This document shows positions 3,863 through 32,804 of a stretch of 40,739 nt of DNA, piece by piece; position 1 is the first letter of the stretch; the number at the start of each line of letters is the position of its first letter. A model generated the notes under the pieces. The model saw only the letters and a program-made list of their open reading frames with translations. It was not told the DNA's origin and did not search any database. The DNA lies in the IMG/VR virus record IMGVR_UViG_3300005563_000019, positions 1-40,739 of that record. One strand, written 5' to 3'. A program made the translations under genes and the position numbers. The DNA is from a virus.

Positions 3863-4164
3863 CCGCCGGGGGGCAGGTTGTATCGATGACGGAAGGCATG
3901 GATTCCAGGGAACTGCTTATCCGGCTGGACGAGCGCACCAAGACGACGTCCGACGAGGTCAAGGGCGTCCGTGACGATCTGCGCGCCATCACTCACGCCA
4001 CCGACGCCAAGCTTGCCCTGCGGGATCAGGAAATCGCCAAGGTCTATGTGACGAAGACGGAATTTTCTCCGATCGCCAAGATGGTCTGGGCGACGGCCGG
4101 AGTTGTGGGATTGGGAGCAGTCGGGGTTGTCGGCCTGGCCCTCAAGATCGTCTTTCACGTCTGA
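3859..4164 (+). CDS. XhlA-like haemolysin/lysis-associated membrane protein
   Basis: The start overlaps the previous stop as ATGA. The 101-residue product has an acidic/basic coiled-coil-like N-terminal two thirds (RLDERTKTTSDEVKGVRDDL) and one C-terminal membrane segment (about 77-99, VWATAGVVGLGAVGVVGLAL). This is the plan of the XhlA family, short proteins with a coiled coil and a tail anchor found next to holins and endolysins. It opens the lysis cassette. Another ATG at 3886 would remove nine residues. Function is inferred from architecture and neighbours. Confidence 0.65.
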   Translation: MTAGGQVVSMTEGMDSRELLIRLDERTKTTSDEVKGVRDDLRAITHATDAKLALRDQEIAKVYVTKTEFSPIAKMVWATAGVVGLGAVGVVGLALKIVFHV

Positions 4165-4165
4165 G

Positions 4166-4579
4166 ATGCGAAAGCACGGTCCATGGATGCTGGTCTTTCT
4201 TGCAACCATAGCCTTAATTTCTTGGGGTTATGCAGTACTGTTTGTAGCCGGGAGCGAGAAAATCTCCGACTGGACATCGTCATATCCTGTCGGGATCAGG
4301 GGGCAGGAGTTCCGGGCTACGGCGCTGGTCCAGGGAGATGTTCGGGAGGACTGTTTCTCGGGCGGCATCGCGACGCTGGTCTATTCCGACAACCGGGTTC
4401 TGGTGTTGCCGCACACGATCTACCGCGATGCCCGTCGCCCGTTCGACCTCGGGATCGCCATCCTGATCCCGGCCGATGCGGCCCCGGGCGAGACGAGGCT
4501 ATCGGTGAGCGAGTCCTACAATTGCGGGATGCTGATGACGCGGATCAAGTCGCCCGCTTTGCGCTTCGAAATAAGGTGA
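4166..4579 (+). CDS. Single-pass membrane protein with periplasmic domain, lysis region
   Basis: The ATG lies one base after the upstream stop; an in-frame ATG at 4103 would sit inside the previous gene. The 137-residue product has an N-terminal anchor (about 8-29, MLVFLATIALISWGYAVLFV) and then a mainly beta-strand-like domain with two cysteines (DCFSGG and YNCGML), which could form a disulfide in the periplasm. I do not recognise the family. The first 90 bases are clearly richer in A/T than the surroundings, which could mark foreign origin. It is not a typical inner-membrane spanin because no coiled coil is visible. Confidence 0.7.
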   Translation: MRKHGPWMLVFLATIALISWGYAVLFVAGSEKISDWTSSYPVGIRGQEFRATALVQGDVREDCFSGGIATLVYSDNRVLVLPHTIYRDARRPFDLGIAILIPADAAPGETRLSVSESYNCGMLMTRIKSPALRFEIR

Positions 4580-4591
4580 TAAGGTGACGCT

Positions 4592-4807
4592 ATGGGCGAT
4601 CTAGTCAACCAGCCGACTTCCGAGCCGACTCGCAAGACCATCGCTGTTGGCATGGGCGGTGTGTCGGCGGTGTCGATCTCCGTCGTGATCGGCTGGGTGT
4701 GTCGGACCTTCCTGCATCAGGAGATGCCCGGTGAGGTGCAGGTTGCGTTGGCGAGCATCCTGATATTCGCTTGCTCATACCTGACGCGCGAGAGGGTGTC
4801 GGTTTGA
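4592..4807 (+). CDS. Putative holin (two membrane segments)
   Basis: The 71-residue product has a polar N-terminus, two hydrophobic segments (about 18-38 and 51-65) and a short charged tail (TRERVSV). This fits a class II holin, the membrane protein that times lysis by making holes for the endolysin. It lies directly before the lysozyme gene, whose start overlaps its stop. The sequence itself is not diagnostic; the call rests on topology and position. Confidence 0.7.
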   Translation: MGDLVNQPTSEPTRKTIAVGMGGVSAVSISVVIGWVCRTFLHQEMPGEVQVALASILIFACSYLTRERVSV

Positions 4808-5232
4808 CCACGCCAAACCTCATCGCCGATCTCAAGCGCGCCGAAGGTTGCCGCCTCACGGCCTACCAGGACACGGTGGGCGTATGGACCATTGGCTACG
4901 GCCACGCCTACGTCCACCCCGGAACCGTCTGGAGCCAAGCCCAGGCGGACGCGCAGCTCACCGCAGACATTGCCCACACCGAAGCCGGCCTCGACGCCCA
5001 TCTGCCCTGGTGGCGCACGCTGGACGATGTCCGGCAGGACGTGCTGGTGAACATGGCTTTCAATCTCGGCGTGACGAGCCTGTGCCAGTTTCGGAACACG
5101 CTGGCCGCGATCCAGGCCGGCAAGTGGCAGGCGGTGCATGACGGGATGCTTCACTCTCTGTGGGCCAAGCAGGTGGGCGCCCGAGCCCAGCGCCTCGCCC
5201 AGCAGATGCTCACGGGAGAACACCAAGCATGA
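4804..5232 (+). CDS. Endolysin, T4-type lysozyme (GH24)
   Basis: This is a phage lysozyme that hydrolyses peptidoglycan. The GH24 signature is complete: Glu in RAEGCRL, then YQDTVGVWTIGYGH. It matches the T4 lysozyme triad Glu11/Asp20/Thr26 in spacing. The C-terminal half keeps VNMAFNLG and ALW-like motifs (SLWAKQVG). The preferred start is TTG at 4804, which overlaps the holin stop as TTGA and has GAGAGG about seven bases upstream. ATG at 4771 would overlap the holin gene by 37 bases and add eleven residues. No signal peptide is seen, so release would need the holin. Confidence 0.93.
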   Translation: MTTPNLIADLKRAEGCRLTAYQDTVGVWTIGYGHAYVHPGTVWSQAQADAQLTADIAHTEAGLDAHLPWWRTLDDVRQDVLVNMAFNLGVTSLCQFRNTLAAIQAGKWQAVHDGMLHSLWAKQVGARAQRLAQQMLTGEHQA

Positions 5233-5552
5233 AGGCCCTCTTCCTCCTCGCCCTCTTCCCCCTCTCTGGCTGTCTCTCACCCACGATCCAACTGAACGTG
5301 GCCAAGGGCGTGCTGGTGGCTGAGGCTGCGACTGACGGTGTGAATCACATGGCGATCGTCGCCGCGCCGGCCCTGCACGGTCAAGCCGCCCTGAGGGTCA
5401 AGGCCTGCGTCGATGGGGCCAACAACGCCACCAGCGCTGCAAAGGCTCTCCAGGCCTCTGGGGACATCGCTGGAGCCTCTGCGTCGGTCAGTGCGGCACT
5501 GGACAACGTCGCTACCTGCACAGCCGCCACGAACGCCGCGAGGAGCCAATGA
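5229..5552 (+). CDS. Small lipoprotein of the lysis cassette (possible outer spanin)
   Basis: The ATG overlaps the lysozyme stop as ATGA. The 107-residue product has a short signal peptide, KALFLLALFPLSGC, with a clear lipobox LSGC, so Cys15 would be lipidated and the protein exported. The mature part is Ala-rich, helical, with two further cysteines (KACVDG and ATCTAA). A lipoprotein directly after an endolysin suggests an outer-membrane spanin role. However, no inner-membrane partner with the usual embedded overlap is seen, so this is tentative. Confidence 0.75.
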   Translation: MKALFLLALFPLSGCLSPTIQLNVAKGVLVAEAATDGVNHMAIVAAPALHGQAALRVKACVDGANNATSAAKALQASGDIAGASASVSAALDNVATCTAATNAARSQ

Positions 5553-5767
5553 ACCCCGTCCTGTTATTGCAGCTCGCCCAGATGGCCCAAGCGGCTTTCG
5601 AAGCCTATCCCGCTATCATGAAAGAGTTCCAGGCTATCCAGGCGGCTGCATCTGCAAAGCCCGAGGAACTGGTTGCGCTGAATGCCCAGATCGCTTCGAT
5701 GGATGCAGCCCGCCTGGCGAGTTGGAAGGCCGCCGACGATGCGCTGGAGGCGGCAGCTAAGACCTAG
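5549..5767 (+). CDS. Small helical protein, unknown
   Basis: This is the last gene of the rightward late operon, with an ATGA overlap to the lipoprotein gene. The 72 residues are Ala-rich and look like one or two amphipathic helices (AAFEAYPAIMKEFQAIQAAA, then a second helix). There is no membrane segment or known motif. It meets the opposing early operon 12 bases further on, with no clear terminator hairpin between them. Coupling suggests a role in lysis or in virion completion. Confidence 0.65.
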   Translation: MNPVLLLQLAQMAQAAFEAYPAIMKEFQAIQAAASAKPEELVALNAQIASMDAARLASWKAADDALEAAAKT

Positions 5768-5779
5768 CCCGGTTCCCTG

Positions 5780-6055
5780 CTACTCATTTCGCCGCGCTGC
5801 CTGAGAGGGGATTGGCCGTCGGATGTCTCCGAACGGCCAGATGCCGTGCTTCCGCATGTCCTTGATCAGCAGTGGGCCTGATGGGTCCGTGATGTTGTTG
5901 CGGTCAATCCAAGCGTTCCGCCACCCGTGCCAGTAGGCTTTCGAGCGGTTGTCCCCCGGCTCTGGCTCGCCTGCGAATCCATCGCGGTAGCCCTCTTGGA
6001 CCTCATCGGGATCGAGCGTCAGCAGTTCGGCCGCTGTGGTGACGGGCTCTCTCAC
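5780..6055 (-). CDS. Small protein with RMF-like GYxxGxAG...HGWRxA motif
   Basis: It starts at GTG overlapping the upstream stop as GTGA. The 91-residue product contains EGYRDGFAG followed by SKAYWHGWRNAWID. The pattern resembles ribosome modulation factor (RGYxAGxxG...WxxGWREA), and phage proteins of this kind are common. RMF dimerises stationary-phase ribosomes; whether this protein touches ribosomes is unknown. It is the last gene of the leftward early operon. Confidence 0.65.
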   Translation of the reverse strand: MREPVTTAAELLTLDPDEVQEGYRDGFAGEPEPGDNRSKAYWHGWRNAWIDRNNITDPSGPLLIKDMRKHGIWPFGDIRRPIPSQAARRNE

Positions 6056-6333
6056 TTCCCGCCCTCGCTTATGAGGGGAAGGGTTGGGAGTGGGTTCATC
6101 CCGCCGCTCGCAGGCTCGCTGTCCGGCCCTTCAGCCACGTCTTGACGCCCAAGAGCGCCATCGGAGAGGGGACGCTCTGAGTAGTTCGTCAAACCCAAAG
6201 CGCCCAGTATCCGGTAAGCGGTGCGGGTGGCCGATATCCCTTCCTCGCGCGCCTCTTGGATCAGGAACGCCACCCGCGCCGCTTGACGAGCGACGGCAGC
6301 GGCTTCGTCCAGAGCGTTCACGATCTTGCTCAT
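6052..6333 (-). CDS. Hypothetical protein, early operon
   Basis: The 93-residue product has a helical N-terminal half (SKIVNALDEAAAVARQAAR; RTAYRILGALGL) and a disordered Gly/Pro-rich tail. The start at 6333 is preceded by a strong GGGGGGAG ribosome site in the 55-base gap after the 383-residue gene, one of only a few real gaps in this operon. I do not recognise the family. Confidence 0.6.
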   Translation of the reverse strand: MSKIVNALDEAAAVARQAARVAFLIQEAREEGISATRTAYRILGALGLTNYSERPLSDGALGRQDVAEGPDSEPASGGMNPLPTLPLISEGGK

Positions 6334-6388
6334 CTACTCCCCCCGAGCTGGGATGGCGGAGAGCATGGCGCGGTAAGCCGTCGTGAGC

Positions 6389-7540
6389 TCACTTTCCGTC
6401 CTCCGCGAGAGCGTTGCGGGTGAGGTCTGGGTCAAGGTCTGCGTCGACTCCGATGCCGTTGGGCGATGCGGGGATGGCCTTCCACCACTGGAACAGGGCC
6501 GCGCTGGCGCTGATCGTGTGGTGACGCGCCTTGGCTTCGTCGCCCGCGATGGCTGCACGCAGCGCCTTCCCGGCGAGATAGCCGACAAGCCAGAACCAGT
6601 TCTCGGCCGACTTGTCCCGGTCGTGCGCGTCTCCCCAACGCTGGCGCTGGTGAGCCGCTTCGGTGACGATCCCTTCCCAGAACTCATCGATCTGCGGGCG
6701 GCTCAGCAATTCCTTGAGCAGACCGTGTTCCATGCGCTCGTCGGCTAATTCCCCCTCCAGTTGCCCGAACCGAGCCTGGAGGCGGGAGAGGGCGCGAATG
6801 AGCGCGCCGCTGTCCGCCTGCATGTCGTCGCAGGTGTCAATGTGCGTACGGATCGTCCCGAAGTCTGCATCGGTAGAGGGGTGGGGGTCGCGCAGGCGAG
6901 CAAGTTCAGCCTCTGCCTTCATAGCCCGCTCTATCGCGCGATCGGCTACGGCAATGGAGGGGTGGGGGATTGGTGGCACAGGCTCCCCCTTGCCTGCGGG
7001 CTCAATAGGCCCTGAAGCCATCTCTTCCGCCTCCCCCGCTTTCTCCGATGCTGGGGGTGGGTTGCCGTTCAGATGGTTCCAGATGTTATCCGATACTGGG
7101 GGTGCAGGCTCTTCCTCAGCAGCGGAGGCTGAACTCGGACTCCACTTGTTAAAGGCGCGCACGATCTCCACCGCCGATCTTTGTTCACTCCCCTCTGTGA
7201 AGGTGCGAGGGGTTAGCAGCCGCCTTCGAAGCGTGTGCCAAGGCTCGTAATTGAAGCCCCACCCTGTGTCTTTGCCGTCGAGAATGTCGGTCACAAGTTG
7301 GCAGAACACCTGCGACGTATGGTCGTGGCCGCGCCACCACGCCGGGTGCGCTGCATCTGTGGCGTCAAGCTCGGGATCGTCCAACACGGGCCGGGAGGAG
7401 AGGGCTTCCAGGGCATCCGCGAGCATGTCGAACAGGTCGCTGTTGGTGTACGAGCACTTGCCTTCCGCATGGTCGGCAGATCGCCACCATTTGGCTTGCA
7501 GTCTGGTCTTGGCGATCAGGTCTTCGGTTGTCGTAGTCAT
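6389..7540 (-). CDS. Multi-domain early protein with WFWLVGYLAGKA domain
   Basis: The ATG at 7540 overlaps the upstream stop as ATGA and is preferred over an in-frame start at 7618. In the 383-residue product an N-terminal helical part is followed by a Pro/Glu-rich linker (about 145-210), a coiled-coil-like segment, and a C-terminal domain with ENWFWLVGYLAGKAL, GDEAKARHHTIS and ALFQWW. That C-terminal pattern recurs in many phage proteins and looks related to all-alpha nucleotide pyrophosphohydrolase-like (MazG/dATP-dGTP diphosphohydrolase) proteins. I do not see a full catalytic ExxE...ExxD set, so activity is not claimed. Confidence 0.7.
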   Translation of the reverse strand: MTTTTEDLIAKTRLQAKWWRSADHAEGKCSYTNSDLFDMLADALEALSSRPVLDDPELDATDAAHPAWWRGHDHTSQVFCQLVTDILDGKDTGWGFNYEPWHTLRRRLLTPRTFTEGSEQRSAVEIVRAFNKWSPSSASAAEEEPAPPVSDNIWNHLNGNPPPASEKAGEAEEMASGPIEPAGKGEPVPPIPHPSIAVADRAIERAMKAEAELARLRDPHPSTDADFGTIRTHIDTCDDMQADSGALIRALSRLQARFGQLEGELADERMEHGLLKELLSRPQIDEFWEGIVTEAAHQRQRWGDAHDRDKSAENWFWLVGYLAGKALRAAIAGDEAKARHHTISASAALFQWWKAIPASPNGIGVDADLDPDLTRNALAEDGK

Positions 7541-10163: not shown

Positions 10164-11203
10164 TATGCTGTCCCTTCGCCTTCGCTTTGCTTCGGCGGAA
10201 CTGCATGACCGTCAGCGATGCGCGCTCCAAGTGCGCGCCCCGAGAGAGATGCGAGAATAGCCCGCCCGATCTGCTCGGGGATGATCGGTGGGTTCAGGTT
10301 TCCGAGGGCGTGGATTCGCTCCACCCGCTCGGCAACCCCTGAAGCCACTCGACCCACGTCGGGTTCAGGCTCCCAAGTATGCCGTTCCTGCCGTGCGATT
10401 GCAGTCCCGATCGGCGCGATGCAGTCGGTGTCGGCCACAGAGCCGCCTCGCTCAATGGGATGCCTCGCCCGTGCGCCAAGCGCAGCGCGTGGCCTTCTTC
10501 CGACCGCCGGCCGCTCCGGAAGTCCCTCGCTGTCGGTGTGGGCCAAAGCGACCGGTTGACCGCGCGTCCGAGCTCGTTCCCGCTCGGGCCGTTGCTCTTG
10601 CCGTCCGGGCTGGCGCCGTGCAGCGTCGGCCAGAGTTGCGACGATCCAGACGCGATCACGGATGTGGGGTGCGTCAAAGGCGGCAGCCGATAGGCAATGC
10701 CACTCCGCATCGTACCCGAGCGCGGCCAGGTCTCCGAGAACTCGTCCGAAGTCTGCTCCCCCGTTGATGTTAAGCAGGTTTGAGCTGTTCTCCAGCAACA
10801 GGCCGAGGGGTCGAAGCTCGCCAGCCAGGCGGACGATTTCGCTCCATAGTCCAGAGCGTGGATCGTCCATGCCAAGTCCCGTGCCCGCTGGGCTGTTGCC
10901 CTGGCAGGGCCATCCGGCAACGATCCAGTCGGGAACAATTCCGGCTGCTCGCAGGCTGGCTCCGGTAAGGGCTCGAACGTCTTCGAAGATGGGGACATGG
11001 GGCCAGTGCTTGCGGAGGATGCGGCGGCAGAACGGCGTGATCTCGCAGAAGGCGGCGGTCTCGAAGCCGCCCGTCCGCTCCAGGCCCAGGCTGTAGGCCC
11101 CGATGCCGCTGAACAGGTCCAGCAGGCGAAGCGGGGCCTCCAGTGCAGAACTGGCCTCTATGCAGTTCCGTGGAGCCGCAGGCGTAACGGAGGGATAACC
11201 CAT
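10163..11203 (-). CDS. DNA (cytosine-5) methyltransferase
   Basis: It transfers methyl from AdoMet to carbon 5 of cytosine. Motif I LDLFSGIGAYSLGLE lies near the start. Motif IV is GWPCQGNS with the catalytic Cys, motif VI is LLLENSSNLL (ENS where ENV is usual), motif VIII HIRDRVWIVA, and motif X ALGNLNPPIIPEQIG near the end. A variable target-recognition region lies between VIII and X. ATG at 11203 has GAGG six bases before it; a GTG at 11215 would overlap the upstream stop but has no spaced ribosome site. No restriction enzyme is nearby, so it is an orphan enzyme, probably for escape from host restriction. Its target sequence cannot be read from here. Confidence 0.93.
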   Translation of the reverse strand: MGYPSVTPAAPRNCIEASSALEAPLRLLDLFSGIGAYSLGLERTGGFETAAFCEITPFCRRILRKHWPHVPIFEDVRALTGASLRAAGIVPDWIVAGWPCQGNSPAGTGLGMDDPRSGLWSEIVRLAGELRPLGLLLENSSNLLNINGGADFGRVLGDLAALGYDAEWHCLSAAAFDAPHIRDRVWIVATLADAARRQPGRQEQRPERERARTRGQPVALAHTDSEGLPERPAVGRRPRAALGARARHPIERGGSVADTDCIAPIGTAIARQERHTWEPEPDVGRVASGVAERVERIHALGNLNPPIIPEQIGRAILASLSGRALGARIADGHAVPPKQSEGEGTA

Positions 11204-11211
11204 TACTTCCC

Positions 11212-11442
11212 TCACCCTCCTGCAACGGGGGCATTAACACCCGGGTCCCTGGGTTCGGAGAGATATTCCCGGATGCTGACATCGAGCCTTTCCCCGGCCG
11301 CCAGCAGGTGTCGGAAACCGGATGCTCTGATGATGACGGCGTCGATATCGCCTCGGCCGCCCATCACCTCTAGAGCCGCGATGGCGGCAACGGCCTGCTC
11401 GGCCCAAGCAATCATTCTCGCTTCAAGGAATGACGTGCTCAC
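11212..11442 (-). CDS. Hypothetical protein, early operon (76 aa)
   Basis: It has a helical N-terminal half (ARMIAWAEQAVAAIAALEVM) and then a short beta/helix segment. There is an ATGA overlap with the NinB gene on one side and contact with the methyltransferase on the other. Not recognised. Confidence 0.6.
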   Translation of the reverse strand: MSTSFLEARMIAWAEQAVAAIAALEVMGGRGDIDAVIIRASGFRHLLAAGERLDVSIREYLSEPRDPGVNAPVAGG

Positions 11443-14429: not shown

Positions 14430-14596
14430 TCGCCCACCGCACCACCCAGACCCCCGAACGCGCCATCCGCGAGAGCCGACTCGGCGCGACCAAGCCCCCA
14501 TCCAGCTACCAGCTCGACAAGCTTGCGATCGGACGCCGCAGAGCCGCCCTTGCTGGCCGCTCCAAGCGTGCTGACGAGCTGCTGAGGAAGTTCTGA
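14426..14596 (+). CDS. Small basic protein between regulator and methyltransferase
   Basis: It overlaps the regulator stop as ATGA and the methyltransferase start as TGATG. The 56 residues are strongly basic, with RAIRESRLGATKPPSSYQLD and a C-terminal RRRAALAGRSKRADELL. It could bind nucleic acid. No family recognised; double coupling supports translation. Confidence 0.6.
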   Translation: MIAHRTTQTPERAIRESRLGATKPPSSYQLDKLAIGRRRAALAGRSKRADELLRKF

Positions 14597-15288
14597 TGCG
14601 CGTGGAGCACATCGGCGACGCGACGCTGTACCTGGGCGACTGCCGGGACGTGCTGCCCACGCTGGGCAAGGTGGACGCGGTTGTGACCGATCCGCCGTAT
14701 GGGATTAATATCGGCTCGTCTGGGCGTATCGGCTCCTCTAAGATAGTCGAAGTTCGCGAATATGGCAAGTTCTCGTGGGACCAAAGCGCCCCGACCGATG
14801 AACTTATTAAGCAAATCCGGTGCGCCGCGCGCTGGTCTATTATCTTCGGAGGCAACTTCTACACGCTTCCGCCGACCTCGTGCTGGCTGGTATGGGATAA
14901 GCTGAACACTGGCGACTTCGCCGACTGCGAATTGGCTTGGACCAACCTCCCGAAAGCCGTCCGACGCCTCCGCTATCTCTGGAATGGCTGTATGCGCGCC
15001 AACGGCGAGGTGCGCGGCGATCACCCGACACAGAAGCCCATCGGGGTCATGGCGTGGGTGCTGCAGCAACTTCCGCCGGATTGTCGGACTGTCCTCGACC
15101 CCTTCATGGGGAGCGGGACGACCGGCGTGGCGTGCGTCAAGGCGGGCCTGACCTTCACCGGCATCGAGCGTGAGGAACGCTACTTCGAAGCCGCCTGCCG
15201 CCGCATCGAGGAAGCCCATCGTCAGCCCCGGCTATTCGCTGAGCCGGTGGCCAATATCGTCCAGCCGTCCATGTTCGGTGAACCCTGA
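14596..15288 (+). CDS. DNA adenine-N6 / cytosine-N4 methyltransferase
   Basis: The beta-class arrangement is visible: TDPPYGINIG (catalytic DPPY, residues 32-35) comes before HPTQKPIG (143-150) and the AdoMet site LDPFMGSGTTGVA (167-179). The domain is N6_N4_Mtase (PF01555). The enzyme would methylate adenine N6 or cytosine N4. At 230 residues it is compact, with little room for a separate target domain. No cognate nuclease is adjacent, so it is an orphan like the cytosine-5 enzyme on the other strand. Roles could be anti-restriction or marking of the replication origin. Confidence 0.92.
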   Translation: MRVEHIGDATLYLGDCRDVLPTLGKVDAVVTDPPYGINIGSSGRIGSSKIVEVREYGKFSWDQSAPTDELIKQIRCAARWSIIFGGNFYTLPPTSCWLVWDKLNTGDFADCELAWTNLPKAVRRLRYLWNGCMRANGEVRGDHPTQKPIGVMAWVLQQLPPDCRTVLDPFMGSGTTGVACVKAGLTFTGIEREERYFEAACRRIEEAHRQPRLFAEPVANIVQPSMFGEP

Positions 15289-23225: not shown

Positions 23226-23948
23226 TTGAGCACCAAAACACCCACCCAGCTGCCGCCGGCGACGACGGTCCTCGATACGGACCTCTACACCGGCTATCCG
23301 GACGATAATCCCGTCATCGGCCCGATGTATGCCATCTCGGCATTGGACCTGCGCCTCTACATGCAGGCTAATTGCCTGCTGTACGACGGCTCGGTTGCCA
23401 TGACCGGCGCGCTTCAGGCGTTCGCGGGAACCGAGGGCTCGCCCGGCGTCACCTTCAGCGGCGACGCGGACACCGGCCTCTATCACGTCTCTGCCAACAA
23501 GTTCGGCCTGGTCGCGGGTGGCGTCTCCTACCTCAACATTTCGTCGGCGGCGATCGAAGCCAAGACGCTGGTGTCGATCACGCTCGGGGCCGACCTGACA
23601 CCTGCGACCACGCCAAGCACTACCTCAGTCGGCTATCTCGGCCTGCCCCAGAACACCAAGAGCGCGGATTACACGCTGGTCATGGCCGACGCGGGGAAGG
23701 AAATCCCCATGTCCGGCAACCACACCGTAACGATCCCCGCTAATGCCTCTGTGGCGTTTCCGCTCGGGACCATCGGCGCAGCCTCGGTGGAGACCGGGGA
23801 CACGCTTACGCTGGCGATCACGTCCGACACCCTCGAGTGGCTGCCCTCGGGCGGCACCGGCTCCCGCACAGTCACCGGGCCGGGGATGGTGTTCTATCGC
23901 AAGCGCACCTCGACGCGCTGGTGGTGCTGGGGTTTTAACGTCACGTGA
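23226..23948 (+). CDS. Fibre-like structural protein (240 aa), TTG start
   Basis: The start is TTG 23226 with GGAAG upstream. The motif SPGVTFSGDADTGLYHVSAN, followed by FGLVAGG, is the recurring fibre motif seen in tail and head fibres. The C-terminal part (about 140-240) is beta-rich with TLEWLPSGGTGSRTV. It is grouped with the next glycine-rich gene in the head region, so it may be a head or capsid fibre rather than a tail fibre. Confidence 0.7.
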   Translation: MSTKTPTQLPPATTVLDTDLYTGYPDDNPVIGPMYAISALDLRLYMQANCLLYDGSVAMTGALQAFAGTEGSPGVTFSGDADTGLYHVSANKFGLVAGGVSYLNISSAAIEAKTLVSITLGADLTPATTPSTTSVGYLGLPQNTKSADYTLVMADAGKEIPMSGNHTVTIPANASVAFPLGTIGAASVETGDTLTLAITSDTLEWLPSGGTGSRTVTGPGMVFYRKRTSTRWWCWGFNVT

Positions 23949-24718
23949 GCGGAGCAGCTATCGCGGCGCTCGGCGGTGTTGCGCTCGGCGCTCAGACCAT
24001 CGTCATCACGGCTACGGGGGCGGGGACGATGCCCACTCCGGCCGGCTGGAACAATGCCAACAACGCGATCTATGTCCTCGCGGCTGGCGGGGATGGTGGG
24101 CTTGGGCAGGCCGGAGGCGGCTCGGGGAGCTTCGCGCGGGCGATCAACGTCACGCTCTCCGGCACGATCAGTTATCAGGTTGGCGCTCACAATACCACCA
24201 CGACGCAAGGCAGCGTGTTCGGAACCGCGGCGACCTGGTTCAACGGTTCAGCTGCGAATGCAGCAAGTGCGGGCGCGCGTGGAGGTGCAGCCGGGACGCT
24301 GGCTGGAGTTGGTGGATTGCCCGGTATCGAGACGGGCAACAGCGGCTCGCTATTGAGGGCCGGTTCGACGGGCGGGGCTTCGCTCTCCGGAGTAGGCGGC
24401 GGCGGGGCTGGCGCACCGGGGCCAAGTGGGCTGGGCGCAAACGGGACGAGTGCCTCTGGCAGCAACCCGGGGGCTGGAGGCGCTGGGGATGCTGGAACCG
24501 GCGGCGCTGGCGGCTCGGCGACGCCTGGAGGCGCTCCGGGAGGCAATGGGGGCAACGGTACGGAGTACGGCGGCGGCTATGGGGCTGGGGGCGGTGGTGG
24601 CGGCGCTGACACAGCCGCAGCCGGAAACGGCGGCTATGGCGCAGGGGGTGGTGGCGGCATTGGCAGCGGCGGGACCGGCGGCAACGGCCTGATCGTGATC
24701 ACCTGGACACCCGCATGA
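23945..24718 (+). CDS. Glycine-rich adhesin-like protein (copy 1)
   Basis: GTG 23945 overlaps the upstream stop. The N-terminal 110 residues form a Gly_rich-type lead-in (PTPAGWNNANNAIYVLAAGG). Residues about 110-245 are poly-glycine with Ala/Ser/Thr, and the end is GGNGLIVITWTPA. This end motif is characteristic of glycine-rich phage fibre proteins, and such regions can pack as polyglycine-II helices as in T4-like gp38 adhesins. A second copy is at 31857-32804. A receptor or surface role is inferred. Confidence 0.72.
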   Translation: MSGAAIAALGGVALGAQTIVITATGAGTMPTPAGWNNANNAIYVLAAGGDGGLGQAGGGSGSFARAINVTLSGTISYQVGAHNTTTTQGSVFGTAATWFNGSAANAASAGARGGAAGTLAGVGGLPGIETGNSGSLLRAGSTGGASLSGVGGGGAGAPGPSGLGANGTSASGSNPGAGGAGDAGTGGAGGSATPGGAPGGNGGNGTEYGGGYGAGGGGGGADTAAAGNGGYGAGGGGGIGSGGTGGNGLIVITWTPA

Positions 24719-25979: not shown

Positions 25980-27011
25980 ATGGCCAGCCCCGGCCTTTCG
26001 GAAATCGTCACCACCACCCTGCGCAACCGCGAGGGCAAGCTCGCGGACAACATGTCCAAGAACATCGCCCTGCTCAACCGCATGAACAAGCGCGGCACGA
26101 TCAACACCGCCGACGGCGGTCGCACCATCGTGCAGGAGCTGGAGTACGCCGAGAACTCGACGTACACCCGCTATAGCGGCTACCAGGTCCTGAACATCTC
26201 GCCGAGCGACGTGTTCACCGCCGCCGAGTTCGACTGGAAGCAGGCCGCGGTTGCGGTCACGGCCTCCGGCCTCGAAGCCGACGTGCAGAACACCGGGACG
26301 GAAGCCATCATCAAGCTGGTGGCCTCGCGCGTTCGCAACGCCGAGAAGACCATGCAGAACAACCTCTGGTCCGACATGTATTCGGATGGGACGGCGTCGA
26401 ACCAGATCGGCGGCCTTCAGCTGCTGGTGGCGGACAATGCCTCCTCGGGGACCGTGGGCGGCATCAACCGGGCGACCTACGGGTTCTGGCGCAACCAGTA
26501 CTTCGACGCCACCACGGACGGCGGCTCGGCGGCGACGACCTCGAACATCCAGAAGTACATGAACACCGTGTACAACCGGACGGTTCGCGGCACCGACAAG
26601 CCGGACCTGATCCTGGCCGACACCAACTACTACAACCTCTATCTCGGCTCGCTCCAGGCCATCCAGCGGATCACCTCCGACGAGATGGCCCAGGCCGGCT
26701 TCACCAGCCTGAAGTACATGGCCGCGGACGTGGTCCTGGACGGCTTCCCGCTGGGCAGCTCGGGCAACCTGCCGAACACCGGGATCGCCCCGGCCGGTGG
26801 TGCGAACTCGACGTCGGCGGCCGGCGCCCCGGTGAACCACATGTACTTCCTGAACACGGAGTACATTCACTGGCGTCCGCACGTGAACCGCAACATGGTC
26901 CCGCTGGAGACCGTGAACTCCATCAACCAGGATGCGACCGTGAAGCTCCTGGTCTGGGCGGGCAACATGACCCTGAGCAACGCCTTCCTGCAATCGGTCC
27001 TTAAAGATTGA
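25980..27011 (+). CDS. Major capsid protein
   Basis: A strong AAGGAGAAA ribosome site precedes ATG 25980, as expected for the most abundant protein. In the 343-residue product SKNIALLNRMNKRGTINTAD, VQELEYAENSTYTRYSGYQ and AVAVTASGLEADVQNTG, with later DEMAQAGFTSLKYMAADVV, fit the HK97-fold capsid family found in Bcep22-like and related podoviruses. It follows the scaffold by 13 bases. The G/C-optimised codon choice is the most even of the window, again a sign of high expression. Confidence 0.88.
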   Translation: MASPGLSEIVTTTLRNREGKLADNMSKNIALLNRMNKRGTINTADGGRTIVQELEYAENSTYTRYSGYQVLNISPSDVFTAAEFDWKQAAVAVTASGLEADVQNTGTEAIIKLVASRVRNAEKTMQNNLWSDMYSDGTASNQIGGLQLLVADNASSGTVGGINRATYGFWRNQYFDATTDGGSAATTSNIQKYMNTVYNRTVRGTDKPDLILADTNYYNLYLGSLQAIQRITSDEMAQAGFTSLKYMAADVVLDGFPLGSSGNLPNTGIAPAGGANSTSAAGAPVNHMYFLNTEYIHWRPHVNRNMVPLETVNSINQDATVKLLVWAGNMTLSNAFLQSVLKD

Positions 27012-27054: not shown

Positions 27055-27351
27055 ATGGCCGCTGTCACTGGCATCTACTGCACCACCACCCCCGAGGCAG
27101 GAATCAACCTCTATCGGGTCTCGCTGTCCATCGGCTCCCAGAAGCTTCTCACCCGGGTCAACGGGTCGGACGGGCGCCAGTGGATTTATGGCAAGCTCGT
27201 TGCCGCTCAGACCTCGATCGCCGCCGTCTCGGTGGGGGCCGCGGGCTCGATCGTCAGCTGCACCACCACCACCGCGATCTGGATGATGAACGCGACCGGC
27301 GGGGCGGCTGCGTCCAGCTATCTCTGGGTCCGCAAACGCACTCTGGCCTAG
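27055..27351 (+). CDS. Small protein after capsid, possible decoration protein
   Basis: GGAAAGGAA precedes ATG 27055. The 98 residues are strand-rich and uncharged (GINLYRVSLSIGSQKLL, VSVGAAGSIVSCTTTTAIW). Position directly after the capsid gene and the good ribosome site suggest an abundant capsid decoration protein. Not recognised by family. Confidence 0.65.
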   Translation: MAAVTGIYCTTTPEAGINLYRVSLSIGSQKLLTRVNGSDGRQWIYGKLVAAQTSIAAVSVGAAGSIVSCTTTTAIWMMNATGGAAASSYLWVRKRTLA

Positions 27352-27391
27352 CGCCTTTCGCCAACGCCCATTGGCGATTGGCCCTGGCAAG

Positions 27392-27424
27392 CGCCGGTCC
27401 TTTACGGGGCCGGCGTTCTGCGTT
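27392..27424 (+). terminator. Rho-independent-type terminator after the capsid genes
   Basis: CGCCGGTCC (27392-27400) pairs with GGGCCGGCG (27407-27415), nine pairs with one G-T wobble and a six-base loop. TTCTGCGTT follows. The T-tract is poor, so read-through into the next genes is likely. A smaller inverted repeat (CGCCAA/TTGGCG, 27359-27376) lies before it. Confidence 0.6.
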
Positions 27425-27435
27425 AGCGTCACCGC

Positions 27436-27549
27436 ATGGGCATCGTCATACTCGCCGCTACGATCTTCGTAGCCTGGGCTGCGCTCTCGGCTTTGTGCTG
27501 GGCGCTTGAAGGTGTCGGGCTCCTCCTCAGCGCGATATTCGACCGATGA
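27436..27549 (+). CDS. Tiny membrane protein (37 aa)
   Basis: A short frame after the terminator, ATGA-coupled to the next gene. Nearly all is hydrophobic (GIVILAATIFVAWAALSALC), one membrane span, with an acidic/basic end FDR. No ribosome site is obvious. Possibly the start of the glycosyltransferase cassette. Confidence 0.45.
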   Translation: MGIVILAATIFVAWAALSALCWALEGVGLLLSAIFDR

Positions 27550-27725
27550 GGCCTGTGGCGCGCGTCGTGGAGTTGGTGGACGGCTCCTTTCTGGTCGAGG
27601 TCGATGACGGCGATGACTATGTGCGCACAGGGTACCGTGGCTCCTTGGAGCGCATGAAGCAAATCGCGGACAGCTTCAACAAGCGACCGCCCATACCTGA
27701 TACCAAAAGAGTCGTGTATCCGTAG
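27546..27725 (+). CDS. Small hypothetical protein before the glycosyltransferase (59 aa)
   Basis: ATGA overlap with the tiny membrane protein. The start of the next gene follows its stop with no gap. It has a strand-rich N-terminus (ARVVELVDGSFLVEVDDG) and a helix (RMKQIADSF). Unknown; the lack of gaps suggests co-translation with the glycosyltransferase. Confidence 0.55.
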   Translation: MRPVARVVELVDGSFLVEVDDGDDYVRTGYRGSLERMKQIADSFNKRPPIPDTKRVVYP

Positions 27726-29123
27726 ATGCTGCACGTTTGCTGCGTCAGAACCGGTCGTAAGTACTCCCGCGATTACGTCGCGATCCTCCACGACATGGTC
27801 AGCCGCAACCTCAGCACGCCACACCATTTCTGGTGTCTGACCGACGATCCCGAGTCCATCCATCCTGAGATCGGGATCATCCCCGCCGACCCCGAGCTGA
27901 AAGGCTGGTGGCAGAAGGTCAACCTCTTCAACCCGCACATGCCCTGGAAGCCGGGCGAGGACCGGGTGCTCTACTTCGACCTCGACGTGGCCATTGTCGG
28001 CCGGTTGGAGGAGATGGCAGAGACGCCCGGCATCATCCGCGACTGGAACAACCCGGAATATAACAGCTCCGTTATGTGCTGGGATGCGGGCGACCACCTC
28101 AACGCCTGGCTGAAGTTCAACCCGATCGCCGTTCCGATCCGGATGCACGGAGACCAGAACTGGCTCACCGAGCTGGGGGGCTGGGAGACCTTCCCGCGCG
28201 ACTGGTGCCTGTCCTTCCGCGCCCACGCCCAGGACTGGCCCCCGAACGAGGCCAAGGTGGTGGTGTTCCACGGCGAGCCCAAGCCGCACGAGGTTCAGGG
28301 CTGGGTCAAGGACGTCTGGAAGATCGGCGGCCATACCCAGTTCCTGGCCGGCAAGGGCATGAACGTCTCTTATGCCAAGGTGCTGGAAAACGTCCGCATC
28401 AACTCGGCCCGGGAAGACGTGCAATGGTTCGTAGGGGATCAGCCGCACAAGGAGACGCTGGTCATCGTTGGAGGAGCCCCGAGCCTGAAGGAGCAGATTC
28501 GGGCGATCCGTGACCAGCGGCTCAGGGGTTCCAAAATCCTCGCCCTGAACAACGCCTGCGCCTTCCTGAACGCCAACAACATCGTGCCCGACTATCTGAT
28601 GATCTGCGACGCGCGGGAAGAGAACGTGGTGTTCACCCGCGCCGAAGCCAAGCGCTACATCCTCGCCAGCCAGTGCGACCCGAGCCTTTTCGACGCCCTG
28701 AAGGGCAAGGACGTGCACATGCCCCATTTGTGGGTGTGCGACGAGATGCGGGACATTCTGGCCCCCTACGACGAGACGCAACCCATCTGCCTGATCGGGG
28801 GCGGCTCGACGGTGGGCCTGCGGGCGATCAGCCTCGGCATCATCTCGGGCTATCGGACCATCCATCTATACGGCATGGACAGCTGCTTTTCGCAGTCGCA
28901 GCATCACGCCTACGAGCAGACCCTGAACGACGCGGACCAGGCGCTTGAGGTGTACCTGCCGGCGCTGAAGAAGCACTACGTGGTGAGCCCCTGGATGGCG
29001 CGTCAGGCGGCAGAGTTCAGGGATATCGTCTGGCAGCACGCCAAGGACAGTGGGACACGCATCATCGCCCACGGCAAGGGACTGATACCGGACATGGCGA
29101 GGCATCTGGCGCAAAATGGCTGA
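27726..29123 (+). CDS. Glycosyltransferase (GT8-like) fused to DUF115 domain
   Basis: Two domains are visible in 465 residues. The first (about 1-205) looks like a retaining GT8-type glycosyltransferase: WWQKVNLFNP, the metal/sugar-nucleotide motif YFDLDVAIVG with DLD at 85-87, and FHGEPKPHE (181-189), the usual second metal His region. The second domain (about 243-440) is DUF115/MptE-like: VIVGGAPSLKEQ, LNNACAFLNANNIVPDYL, then IGGGSTVGLRAISLGI, HLYGMD and HHAYEQ. DUF115 occurs in the Maf proteins that help glycosylate flagellin. The protein therefore probably adds sugar to a protein or surface polymer. It stands in the virion gene cluster, two genes before an FkbM methyltransferase. Target unknown. 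Confidence 0.8.
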   Translation: MLHVCCVRTGRKYSRDYVAILHDMVSRNLSTPHHFWCLTDDPESIHPEIGIIPADPELKGWWQKVNLFNPHMPWKPGEDRVLYFDLDVAIVGRLEEMAETPGIIRDWNNPEYNSSVMCWDAGDHLNAWLKFNPIAVPIRMHGDQNWLTELGGWETFPRDWCLSFRAHAQDWPPNEAKVVVFHGEPKPHEVQGWVKDVWKIGGHTQFLAGKGMNVSYAKVLENVRINSAREDVQWFVGDQPHKETLVIVGGAPSLKEQIRAIRDQRLRGSKILALNNACAFLNANNIVPDYLMICDAREENVVFTRAEAKRYILASQCDPSLFDALKGKDVHMPHLWVCDEMRDILAPYDETQPICLIGGGSTVGLRAISLGIISGYRTIHLYGMDSCFSQSQHHAYEQTLNDADQALEVYLPALKKHYVVSPWMARQAAEFRDIVWQHAKDSGTRIIAHGKGLIPDMARHLAQNG

Positions 29124-29298
29124 GATGAAGGAACACCCCCCGCTGGCGATATGCGAGGCTAACGCGCGGGCGAAGCGGACGACCGCGCAGTTTCGGCGCG
29201 AAGAAGCCGCAAAGGCGCTTCGCCACGCCGAGGAATTGGACGAAGAGGCGGCTATTTGGGAGCGTGCGGCGCAAACCCTGAGGGCCGCAGATGCCTGA
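29116..29298 (+). CDS. Small coiled-coil protein between glycosyltransferase and methyltransferase
   Basis: It overlaps both neighbours by eight bases. The 60-residue helical, charged product (AKRTTAQFRREEAAKALRHA) is predicted to be one long coil. It could link or regulate the two enzymes; no family match. Confidence 0.55.
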   Translation: MAEMKEHPPLAICEANARAKRTTAQFRREEAAKALRHAEELDEEAAIWERAAQTLRAADA

Positions 29299-29911
29299 TC
29301 TGATCCAAGACGCCCGCGGCATCTGGTGGCCCGCCGACGACGAATGGGGCCGGGAGATCATCCCGCTTGAGATCGGCCCGGCGATGAGCTGGCTACACGC
29401 CCACAACAAGCGATGGGGGACCATCATCCAGGCCGGGGGGAACGTGGGGCTCTACCCAGAAGCGCTAGGGCATACGTTCGGCCACGTGATGACATTCGAA
29501 CCGGACCCCGTGAACTACGAGTGCATACGCCGCAATGTTGGAGCGCAGAACGTCATCTGGTGGCAAGGCGCGCTTGGCGAACGCATGGGGGCTTGTGGCA
29601 TGGTCGAAGTGATGACGCACAACTGCGGCGCACACCGGATCGAGCCAGACGAAGATGGCGGTATCCCACTCTTTACGATCGATGGAATGGAGATGACCCC
29701 AGACGTCATCTGGCTGGACGTCGAAGGCTCCGAACTCCCGGCCCTGAAGGGCGCGGCTGAAACCCTGAAGCGCTGCAAGCCCATGGTCATCGTGGAACTG
29801 AAGGGCCTGGGCGAGGCCTATGGCTACACGAACGATGACGTTCACGCCTATCTCGAAGACTTCGGCTACAAGCTGGTGTCAGAGCACGGCAACGACAGGA
29901 TGTTCGCATGA
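29291..29911 (+). CDS. FkbM-family methyltransferase
   Basis: The Rossmann AdoMet site is IIQAGGNVGLYP (about 45-56; DxGxNxG in most relatives, QAGGNVG here), followed by the acidic ribose-binding end of strand 2, MTFEPDPVNY (67-76), and RRNVGAQNV. WLDVEGSELPALKGA (141-155) and KPMVIVELKG (163-172) are the FkbM hallmarks. FkbM enzymes O-methylate sugars and polyketides and often cap glycans. The gene overlaps the next start as ATGA. With the GT-DUF115 gene it suggests a methylated sugar decoration. Confidence 0.85.
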   Translation: MPDLIQDARGIWWPADDEWGREIIPLEIGPAMSWLHAHNKRWGTIIQAGGNVGLYPEALGHTFGHVMTFEPDPVNYECIRRNVGAQNVIWWQGALGERMGACGMVEVMTHNCGAHRIEPDEDGGIPLFTIDGMEMTPDVIWLDVEGSELPALKGAAETLKRCKPMVIVELKGLGEAYGYTNDDVHAYLEDFGYKLVSEHGNDRMFA

Positions 29912-30150
29912 GCATGTTCGAAGAACTGGTCGCCGCGGTAGGCAAGATCGAGGTTCATGAATCGATCACAGATATGGCCGCCAAATGCGATCGAGTGCCC
30001 TGCGCTGAGGAGGTGGTGCGAGTCGTTTTGAAAACGATGCGAGATATCAGCCGAGAGCACGAAAACGCGATGGAGCCGGTCAACGAAGCCCAATCCCGCG
30101 CGGTTATTTGGGCACGCGGAATCGACCACATCCTCAACGGGGGCGAGTGA
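29908..30150 (+). CDS. Small hypothetical protein (80 aa)
   Basis: ATGA overlap with the methyltransferase. Its C-terminal ARGIDHILNGG resembles that of the protein at 17393-17698. Otherwise helical with two cysteines (KCDRVPCAEE). Unknown. Confidence 0.6.
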   Translation: MSMFEELVAAVGKIEVHESITDMAAKCDRVPCAEEVVRVVLKTMRDISREHENAMEPVNEAQSRAVIWARGIDHILNGGE

Positions 30151-30154
30151 CCAA

Positions 30155-30769
30155 ATGTCAGCCGTTTACGACGCAACCACCGGCCTCAGCTTCGGCATCG
30201 GCCAGCAGCAGGAACAGGGCGTGTTCGCCGAGTTCGAACTGACCGCCGTGCAGAACAACTTCAAGACCGCCCAGGAAGGTCGCCCGATCTTCGAGGACAA
30301 GGTCTATATCCGCATCCGCACGGCCGGCGATCGCCTCAACGAGGTCCACCGCGAAGCCAAGGATCAGGACAAGCGCCGCTTCCCGCTCCAATGGGCGCGC
30401 TACGTCCAGGGCCAGGAACAGGCCACGGAGGGAACGCCATTGGAACAGTGGCCGTTGATGACACCGGGAAGCGTTCGCAGCCTGAAGGCCCTCAACGTGA
30501 ACACGGTGGAACAGCTCGCGGCGGTCACGGACGGCAACCTCGACCACCTGGGCATGGGCGCCCGGAACCTGCGCGAACAGGCCCAGGCCTATCTTGCGCG
30601 AGCCAACGAGGGCGCTGCGCTGCGCCAGGCCACCGCCGAAAACCAGAACCTGCGGGACGAGATCGAGGCTTTGAAAGCCAACGTCGCCAACCTCGCCGCC
30701 GCCAGCCGCAAGAAGGAAGCCACCGATGACGGCAATCGAACCAAACCGGGAAATACGCCCGAGGAGTGA
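30155..30769 (+). CDS. Conserved virion-region protein with coiled-coil end
   Basis: The N-terminal half of the 204-residue product has a conserved phage pattern: AQEGRPIFEDKVYIRIRTAG, RFPLQWARYVQGQEQATEGT, PLEQWPLMTPGSVRSLKALN. Then comes a helix-hairpin-helix-like segment (VNTVEQLAAVTDGNL) and a coiled-coil tail (about 150-190). I know this family as a head-region protein of unknown function in alpha- and betaproteobacterial podoviruses. Confidence 0.7.
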   Translation: MSAVYDATTGLSFGIGQQQEQGVFAEFELTAVQNNFKTAQEGRPIFEDKVYIRIRTAGDRLNEVHREAKDQDKRRFPLQWARYVQGQEQATEGTPLEQWPLMTPGSVRSLKALNVNTVEQLAAVTDGNLDHLGMGARNLREQAQAYLARANEGAALRQATAENQNLRDEIEALKANVANLAAASRKKEATDDGNRTKPGNTPEE

Positions 30770-31611: not shown

Positions 31612-31860
31612 ATGGCTCACACTCAGGACGCAGTCATCTATGATCCGCTCACCGGCAACGTCGCCATGATCGTCATTCCGGATGACGACACGCAGTTAGG
31701 CGATCCGGCTTTCAACCCAAAGGGCTTGACGCAACTTCGGGTCCCCAGTTCCTCGGACCCCGTTTCCAACGCCGCCAAAATCAATTCAAAAATAAAGCTT
31801 CCTGTTACCACCGCTGCGTCAGTCGGGGTAGCGCTCGGAAACGTGAGCGTTAGCCAGTGA
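31612..31860 (+). CDS. Small structural-region protein (82 aa)
   Basis: The product has strand-like motifs (DAVIYDPLTGNVAMIVIPDD) and a Ser/Val-rich end. It precedes the second glycine-rich gene, whose GTG overlaps its stop as GTGA. Not recognised. Confidence 0.6.
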   Translation: MAHTQDAVIYDPLTGNVAMIVIPDDDTQLGDPAFNPKGLTQLRVPSSSDPVSNAAKINSKIKLPVTTAASVGVALGNVSVSQ

Positions 31861-32804
31861 CGACGGTCATCATCGTCTCTGGCGCGACAACTATCGTCCC
31901 ATCCGATTGGAATAACTCCATAAATTCCATTCATGGAATAGGGGCCGGGGGCAATGGCGCAGCTGGTTCCGGTACGAACACGGGCGGCGGCGGCGGCGGC
32001 GGCGGTGAGTACCGAAAGGCCGCCAACGTAACCCTGACGGCGGGATCAACCGTTGACATCAACATTCCAGCCGGCGGGGCCGGTTCGGGTGTCTCTGGGA
32101 CCTACATCAAGGATGGGGCCGGCGGCGGCGGCACAATCCAGATGGAAGCCAAGAACGGAGCCAATGCAGTAGGAAAAACCGGAGGGACCGGAGGGACCGG
32201 AGGGACCGGAGCGGCGGCTAATTTTGCCGGGGGCCAAGGGGGAACGAACTCTGTCGTCAGCACCATTGGCGGCTCCGGCGGTGGCGGATCGGCTGGACCG
32301 ACAGGCGCAGGTAAGGCCGGAGGCAGCAACGCGACTTCGACGGCTGGCGCTTCCGGGGGCGGGTCAAACGGAGGTTCCTCTACAGTAGGAACCGATCCTG
32401 GCTCGGGCAATGGATCGACTGGCGGCGCGGGCACGAGTGGAGCCGGCGGCGGGGCTGGGTCGAGTGCAGGAGGCCCCTCCGGCAACGCGACGGCGGGCAC
32501 GATTGGCGGCGGCGGAGGGGCGTCCGGCAACAGCAGTACGAACGGGTCGGGTATTGGCGGCTCTGGCGGCGTCGATACAGCGTTTGATGCCTCGCACGGC
32601 GCATCGGGCGGCGGCGGAGGTTCGGGTCACTCTGCCGGCAATGCCTCCGGCGCGGGTGGCGCTGGAGGAGCGTATGGGGGCGGTGGCGGTGGCTCGGGCT
32701 CGACCGGGACTGGCACATCTGGGGCCGGCGGCACAGGCGGCCAGGGAATCTTGGTGCTCATCTACACTCCAGCGGACGCCTTGACGGCGCAGATATTGAT
32801 GTGA
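31857..32804 (+). CDS. Glycine-rich adhesin-like protein (copy 2)
   Basis: GTG 31857. In the 315-residue product an N-terminal lead-in (TTIVPSDWNNSINSIHGIGA) matches that of the copy at 23945 (AGWNNANNAIYVLAAG). A glycine-rich body of about 230 residues and the end GGQGILVLIYTPAD follow. The DNA contains seven GGC triplets in a row (31983-32003) and a 9-base tandem repeat (32178-32213), both in frame. Such proteins serve as tips of phage fibres. It is most similar in plan to copy 1, so the pair may have arisen by duplication. Confidence 0.72.
   Translation: MTTVIIVSGATTIVPSDWNNSINSIHGIGAGGNGAAGSGTNTGGGGGGGGEYRKAANVTLTAGSTVDINIPAGGAGSGVSGTYIKDGAGGGGTIQMEAKNGANAVGKTGGTGGTGGTGAAANFAGGQGGTNSVVSTIGGSGGGGSAGPTGAGKAGGSNATSTAGASGGGSNGGSSTVGTDPGSGNGSTGGAGTSGAGGGAGSSAGGPSGNATAGTIGGGGGASGNSSTNGSGIGGSGGVDTAFDASHGASGGGGGSGHSAGNASGAGGAGGAYGGGGGGSGSTGTGTSGAGGTGGQGILVLIYTPADALTAQILM
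31983..32003 (+). repeat. (GGC)7 microsatellite within glycine-rich gene
   Basis: Seven GGC codons in a row followed by GGT give eight glycines. Triplet repeats of this type can change length without breaking the frame. Confidence 0.85.
32178..32213 (+). repeat. Nine-base tandem repeat within glycine-rich gene
   Basis: Three exact units of ACCGGAGGG and a fourth differing at one base, in frame, coding for Gly-Gly-Thr type triplets. Length change by slippage would keep the frame. Confidence 0.85.

Follow-up and report, generated by a model that had tools for sequence, protein, structure and literature searches.

A probable virion glycosylation cassette that combines a GT8-Maf/DUF115 fusion with an FkbM methyltransferase beside the capsid genes of an Mx8-type phage

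The 40,739-bp virus record IMGVR_UViG_3300005563_000019, referred to here in its whole length as the window, carries a virion module of the Mx8 podovirus type that includes the portal, a scaffold-like protein, and the major capsid protein (MCP). Past the capsid gene, the order is a small protein, a cassette of enzyme genes, and a p50-like protein. The cassette consists of two small open reading frames (ORFs), a 465-aa fusion of a GT8-like glycosyltransferase domain and a Maf/DUF115 domain (P0001, 27726..29123), a 60-aa linker ORF (P0002, 29116..29298), and a 206-aa FkbM methyltransferase dependent on S-adenosylmethionine (SAM) (P0003, 29291..29911). These genes, like the other features given below between 25980 and 30769, lie on the plus strand; they run in one direction, and their starts and stops overlap or abut. 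P0001 and P0002 share 8 nt, as do P0002 and P0003, and P0003 shares 4 nt with the ORF starting at 29908; these successive overlaps argue that the genes form one coupled operon. We think it likely that the cassette is a late-operon module for two-step O-glycosylation and O-methyl capping of capsid-surface proteins.

The fusion protein was analyzed by motifs, family profiles, and structure prediction. P0001 has the motifs DLD (residues 85-87), HGEPKP (182-187), GGGSTVG (359-365), and HHAYEQ (393-398), which a first-pass annotation of the letters had read as a GT8-like domain fused to a DUF115 domain. That reading held up. The glycosyltransferase family phrog_1962 covers residues 5-199 (E = 2e-19), and PF01973 (DUF115/Maf/MptE-like) covers residues 221-390 (E = 1.7e-18; 67.5 bits against a curated cut-off of 34.6); no E-value obtained for the cassette is near chance. 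An AlphaFold2 model built from a 34-sequence alignment had a predicted local distance difference test score (pLDDT) of 91.9 and a predicted template modeling score of 0.72, compared to a pLDDT of only 41 from an earlier two-sequence alignment. Both folds expected from the motifs were recovered from this model. In VIA-align, residues 2-203 of the GT8 domain (residues 1-205; 27726..28340) matched LgtC (Z 17.6), GlyE (Z 17.3), and glycogenin (Z about 17), and residues 215-460 of the Maf/DUF115 domain (residues 215-465; 28368..29120) matched the Maf structure 5mu5 (Z 21.6; 3.0 Å across 223 residues) and the archaeal MptE structure 8sd5 (Z 15.4). Foldseek also lists sialyltransferases, which agrees with a published resemblance between Maf and Cst-II (PMC11339370). 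The hit lists of Foldseek and VIA are ordered by single domain, so families missing from them could still match. Finally, a profile of the 34 homologs searched against solved structures retrieved glycogenin at E = 1e-7, Maf at E = 9e-13, and MptE at E = 3e-3.

The putative catalytic residues are conserved on both sides of the fusion. The DxD, GGDQ, and HxG/KP regions of P0001 are in register with the DxD, GGDQ, and HFLG/KPW region of glycogenin, and across the 34 homologs D85xD87 is nearly invariant, H182 is invariant, and GDQ and the HG pair are conserved, as are G250, S253, D295, and H394 on the Maf side. The first domain thus has the GT-A fold as well as the DxD and C-terminal metal-binding His region of GT8 enzymes. 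The Pfam GT8 model PF01501 gave no match to P0001 at E-values up to 1, and P0001 is therefore called GT8-like rather than a formal GT8 member. The second domain belongs to Maf/DUF115 both by the PF01973 cut-off and by its central Maf domain fold. The NCBIfam model for PseD/Maf scored 15.1 bits against a cut-off of 670, and the three-domain Maf architecture is absent; P0001 could function as Maf does, yet it is not classed as a Maf enzyme proper. The Pfam name, MptE-like, and the match to 8sd5 would also fit a pterin or other diphosphokinase of the MptE type, in which case the fusion would not be a two-glycosyltransferase enzyme. This is highly improbable, as Maf fits better than MptE both in the structural comparison and in the profile search, sialyltransferases are among the matches, and the domain is recurrently fused with a glycosyltransferase and a sugar-type methyltransferase.

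P0003 scored above the cut-offs of both PF05050 (E = 1.4e-15; 58.3 bits versus 22.7) and TIGR01444 (E = 3.2e-16; 60.1 bits versus 37.7). The motifs QAGGNVGLY, FEPDPVN, and WLDVEGSE are kept in its homologs, and its SAM-binding motifs are intact, so that its assignment to FkbM at first pass stands. A nucleotide-pattern query derived from P0003 found no match among viral contigs. For P0002, labeled a coiled-coil linker at first pass, a family search gave no match above the cut-off.

The remaining features in and around the cassette are small. A hydrophobic 37-aa ORF (27436..27549) is followed by a 59-aa ORF (27546..27725) whose stop abuts the glycosyltransferase start codon, both described from the sequence only, and the 80-aa ORF that overlaps the FkbM gene (29908..30150) had no PHROG match. 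Upstream lies a G+C-rich hairpin (27386..27421), and the region around it (27350-27435) folds at -45 kcal/mol with a z score of -4.1. This element had been taken for a terminator, a label that has to be dropped: the hairpin has no T-run, is missing from the output of a terminator scan, and is better described as attenuator-like. Defense-system models gave no match. No sugar-nucleotide enzyme was found among ten other window proteins scanned, and the nucleotide sugars for the cassette would come from the host.

PHROG matches identify the neighboring genes as those for the portal (E = 4e-202) and the major head protein (phrog_9953, E = 9e-101), which bears out the placement of the overlapping genes beside the capsid genes in the first-pass annotation. 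The MCP gene (25980..27011), the 5′ neighbor, encodes an Mx8p48-like protein with 43-58% identity to the MCPs of Mx8, Mx9, ppBjS10J-1, and BUCT555. Myxococcus phage Mx8 itself encodes, in succession, p48 (the major head protein), p49 (with the annotation "virion structural protein"), and p50, and the window has homologs of all three in the same order. The 98-aa product of 27055..27351 was placed in the p49 family by a profile that retrieves Mx8p49 at E = 1e-49, tblastn with the window protein having found no relative among phage records. Size, position, and the Mx8 annotation suggest that p49-like proteins decorate the capsid exterior, hence the name decoration-like. The 3′ border is an Mx8p50-like virion-module protein (30155..30769; phrog_20268, E = 1e-30), and a p50 profile built in this analysis retrieves Mx8p50 at E = 2e-57. 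This means that the cassette is inserted precisely between p49 and p50, with capsid genes on one side and genes of the tail connector on the other.

Relatives were gathered from viral and genome contigs by the capsid protein and by the fusion, giving 166 capsid-gene loci (numbered with the prefix L), 149 of which have a complete p48-p50 slot. The slot is either bare, usually with the p49-like gene alone, or enlarged. Of the 65 slots that exceed 1.3 kb, 55 contain DUF115; the 84 shorter ones all lack it. When only the distinct loci retrieved by capsid sequence are counted, leaving out L090-L120, which were retrieved with the fusion itself, 29 of 117 carry DUF115. The ten long slots that lack it are mostly taken up by a second structural-type protein, by what is probably a holin/lysis set (BUCT555), or by undefined ORFs, with no recognized enzymes. 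Homologs in the same gene order, which the first-pass annotation had proposed to seek, do occur in related phages. Mapped onto a capsid tree with 134 loci, presence of the cassette takes 17 changes, at least nine of them on well-supported branches. Many loci in the branch of L141-L162, mostly from gut and rumen Alphaproteobacteria, have no p49-like gene; their p50-like start lies ∼120 nt past the MCP gene, and the cassette is absent from all of them.

The enzymes of the slot occur in several architectures. First, DUF115 may stand alone (for example, L018, L023, and L040). Second, the glycosyltransferase and DUF115 may be fused and FkbM separate, as in the window, L010, L014, L017, and L035. 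Third, all three may form one protein, either with FkbM (L050, L059, L067, and L174) or, in about 20 loci including L002, L057, L072, and L090, with Methyltransf_24 in its place (PF13578, E = 6e-18). Fourth, DUF115 may be fused to FkbM with the glycosyltransferase separate (L116), and finally, it may stand beside a hexapeptide acyltransferase-like gene (L061). No surveyed locus has both methyltransferase types together. In L139, a contig of a Lysobacterales metagenome-assembled genome, DUF115 lies in the capsid slot (8548 onward) and the GT8-like and FkbM genes, which overlap, form a pair toward the opposite end of the locus, upstream of the MCP gene (421-1603). The recurrence of these partners in fusions of differing order strongly indicates that they act in a single pathway. 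The complete fusion, looked for in 299 genomes from the bacterial family around L174, occurred solely in the L174 phage contig, which argues that the gene belongs to the phage and is not one that hosts commonly carry.

Several further loci show variations on this set. The marine viral contig L003/L004 has separate, adjacent ORFs at 3417-6636 for a GT8-like protein, DUF115, a sulfotransferase-looking protein, FkbM, and a second GT8-like protein; by gene content, it is a split version of the cassette, with a possible sulfation step. In L061 (3326-4111), L079, and L083, the companions of DUF115 are acyltransferase-like genes with hexapeptide repeats or hydrolase-like genes, in place of a methyltransferase, which suggests a different capping chemistry. 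HNH-type small genes lie within the slot of L012 (10351-10815), L014, and L099, which hints that the slot could serve as a target for homing. These insertions, together with the patchy distribution and its many gains or losses, would fit a slot that collects decorative morons, selfish or neutral genes that land there safely and share no common function. Such a reading is very unlikely, however, since the same three enzyme types recur and are fused in varied orders, the alternative methyltransferases never co-occur, the catalytic motifs are kept, and the composition of the capsid proteins changes in correlation.

This last point was examined by comparing Ser+Thr content in seven virion proteins between cassette-bearing and cassette-free loci, using phylogenetic generalized least squares (PGLS) on the capsid tree with G+C as a covariate; ten residue classes were examined, of which Ser+Thr was the prior hypothesis. 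Each tree was built from one gene by a quick search; recombination is common, and some of the loci represent contig fragments. First, Ser+Thr rose from 0.166 in cassette-free to 0.214 in cassette-bearing loci in the p49-like protein (PGLS P = 1e-6; the window protein has 0.224) and from 0.139 to 0.155 in the MCP (P = 3e-4), compared to no shift with the cassette in the portal, scaffold, p50, tube, and stabilization proteins (P = 0.19-0.80). Second, in 400 simulated trait histories the P values were 0.0025 for the p49-like protein and 0.005 for the MCP, with 0.16-0.79 for the five controls, and the effect persists in the capsid-retrieved loci alone. Third, the effect is still present but weaker on the p49-like protein's own tree (P = 0.0025, and 0.013 for the unbiased subset), since the cassette and the p49-like gene are largely co-inherited. 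Across the same 100 loci, the cassette requires seven changes on the p49-like tree, compared to 14 on the MCP, 17 on the p50, 15 on the scaffold, and 15 on the tube tree. Furthermore, 27 of the 29 loci without a detectable p49-like gene also lack the cassette, and the other two have a small gene between the capsid gene and the cassette. The cassette lies within the virion module and is largely co-inherited with a candidate acceptor. The p49-like protein of cassette-bearing phages is also poorer in Gly and Ala.

Some of the data weigh against a capsid-surface acceptor. Part of the Ser/Thr shift could stem from the co-inherited p49-like gene itself, and the p49-like tree leaves just three well-supported independent contrasts. 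Five cassette-free loci (L005, L030, L033, L041, and L046) match the richest cassette-bearing p49-like proteins in Ser/Thr. A Ser/Thr/Gly/Pro-rich insertion of ∼22 residues relative to most relatives, at about residues 251-287 of the window MCP, was considered as an acceptor site, but it is variable in the family and does not track with the cassette. Likewise, none of the three top-scoring Ser/Thr/Tyr/Asn columns of the MCP tracks the cassette on independent pairs. A host glycan as the target would also be compatible with the enzymes, as GT8 members such as LgtC act on lipooligosaccharide.

The cassette could then act late in infection on host lipopolysaccharide, capsule, pilin, or flagellin and so block superinfection or keep released virions from binding again to debris. 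FkbM enzymes can methylate polysaccharide sugars, and the fold match to LgtC points the same way. Maf enzymes, moreover, glycosylate flagellin (PMC11339370). We nevertheless consider a host-surface target rather unlikely. The cassette comes without a flippase, an anchor, or a Gtr-type partner, and its place is fixed in the virion operon, not in a lysogeny or moron region. The composition signal is confined to capsid proteins among the seven virion proteins compared, and inheritance of the cassette follows the p49-like gene. The first-pass annotation had left open a methylated sugar on a virion protein or a change of a host surface glycan; the comparative evidence favors the virion side, with the p49-like protein and the MCP as candidate acceptors, and no positive evidence emerged for the host surface.

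Within the virion, other proteins could be the acceptor, for example a tail protein or the glycine-rich, fibre-like proteins encoded at 23945-24718 and 31857-32804. These two flank the cassette and share a motif, W-N-N near the start followed by GAGG/AAGG; they are perhaps paralogous fibre-like proteins. Both are encoded in the same gene block as the cassette, and in mycobacteriophages the tail tube is glycosylated besides the capsid (PMC12363180). An acceptor of this kind is improbable, because the homologs of the tube and stabilization proteins have no Ser/Thr shift.

The early region of the window encodes a C5-cytosine DNA methylase (10166-11215, minus strand) and an N6/N4 DNA methylase (14596-15285, plus strand). 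Phage glycosyltransferases that act on DNA are well known, and with these methylases in the window, the fusion could conceivably glycosylate hypermodified phage DNA bases. Nevertheless, this is extremely improbable: the window proteins scanned include no base-hypermodification genes, the GT8 and Maf folds differ, to our knowledge, from those of known DNA glucosyltransferases, and both the position and the composition signal are linked to the capsid.

For capsid-surface O-glycosylation, what we infer beyond the genes themselves (activity, order of the steps, identity of the sugars, acceptor, and benefit) would be as follows. With a nucleotide sugar as donor, the GT8 domain would place a first residue, of hexose type, on Ser/Thr of a capsid-surface protein that has just been made. 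The fused Maf/DUF115 domain would add a second sugar or, as Maf does on flagellin, might make the protein linkage itself. The separate FkbM enzyme would then O-methylate the outer sugar and so cap the glycan. The most likely acceptor would be the p49-like decoration protein, whose gene lies directly upstream, followed by the MCP, and the product would be a virion with a methylated-glycan coat, probably with altered surface charge, recognition, or stability. For the Mx8-type lineage as a whole, we suggest only tentatively, and as something a little short of probable, that there is an exchangeable slot in which a phage Maf fused to a glycogenin-like GT8 builds a short O-glycan on p49-like and capsid proteins, the caps (FkbM, a second methyltransferase, or an acyltransferase) are swappable, and the decoration gene and the enzymes move as one unit.

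Phage virion glycosylation is known experimentally from few systems and changes virion recognition. In this family, the bare-slot relatives are natural knock-outs and the capping enzymes are swapped naturally, so that the purpose of capsid sugars could be addressed by comparisons inside a single virion family. If the proposed reactions are true, they would carry Maf-type glycosylation of proteins beyond flagellin to the capsids of viruses and provide new compact enzymes for glyco-engineering, and the swappable capping enzymes would vary the outer end of the glycan like bacterial serotype loci. In the open-licence literature on DUF115/MptE-like proteins and phage, FkbM and capsid, and capsid glycosylation, the cassette is not described; unnamed copies of the fusion are present in predicted-structure databases. 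Within that literature, the enzyme architecture and the mobile slot appear to be new. The first-pass annotation's remark that such a unit is not well described therefore applies to this architecture and not to phage virion glycosylation as such, which is already known in mycobacteriophages (PMC12363180). The cassette itself is real and well preserved, and, as predicted from its genes, it would be a probably new form of phage virion glycosylation.

The closest experimental precedent is virion glycosylation in mycobacteriophages, in which glycosyltransferases (Che8 gp110 and Corndog gp38) act on proteins of the capsid and the tail tube (Freeman et al. 2023, as related in PMC12363180). Like these, the enzymes of the cassette are phage-encoded and would act on the virion's own proteins. 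The hosts are different, and the passages of PMC12363180 consulted mention neither a GT8-Maf fusion nor a swappable methyltransferase or a decoration-side slot. The closest enzyme system is flagellin glycosylation by Maf, a cytosolic O-glycosylation of protein Ser/Thr with no fixed sequon (PMC11339370). The Maf domain of P0001 has the same fold as the Maf/PseD flagellin glycosyltransferase 5mu5 across the aligned residues, whereas the N- and C-terminal Maf domains are missing, a GT8 domain is present instead, and there is no flagellin context. With glycogenin, LgtC, and the Skp1-glycosylation galactosyltransferase 6mw5 of the GT8 family, P0001 shares the fold (Z about 17) and the DxD/GGDQ/HxG/KP motifs, but its domain is about 15% identical, short (about 200 residues), and fused to Maf. 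Compared to other FkbM methyltransferases, the one here is one of at least two interchangeable types. P1 PmgQ and P7 HdmD contain a related GT8-like domain (residues 7-191, about 25% identity), but they are stand-alone proteins that match without the Maf domain and are annotated only with a "putative morphogenetic function"; by likeness, PmgQ may hint at virion glycosylation in P1. Finally, Tetraselmis viridis virus S20 (L006, 4115-8654) has, behind an HK97-type MCP, a GT-D gene, a weak MptE-like match, a methyltransferase, a GT2 gene, FkbM, and a GT8-like gene. These are separate, uncharacterized ORFs in a different virion lineage, and their position behind that capsid gene means that the theme occurs in more than a single lineage.

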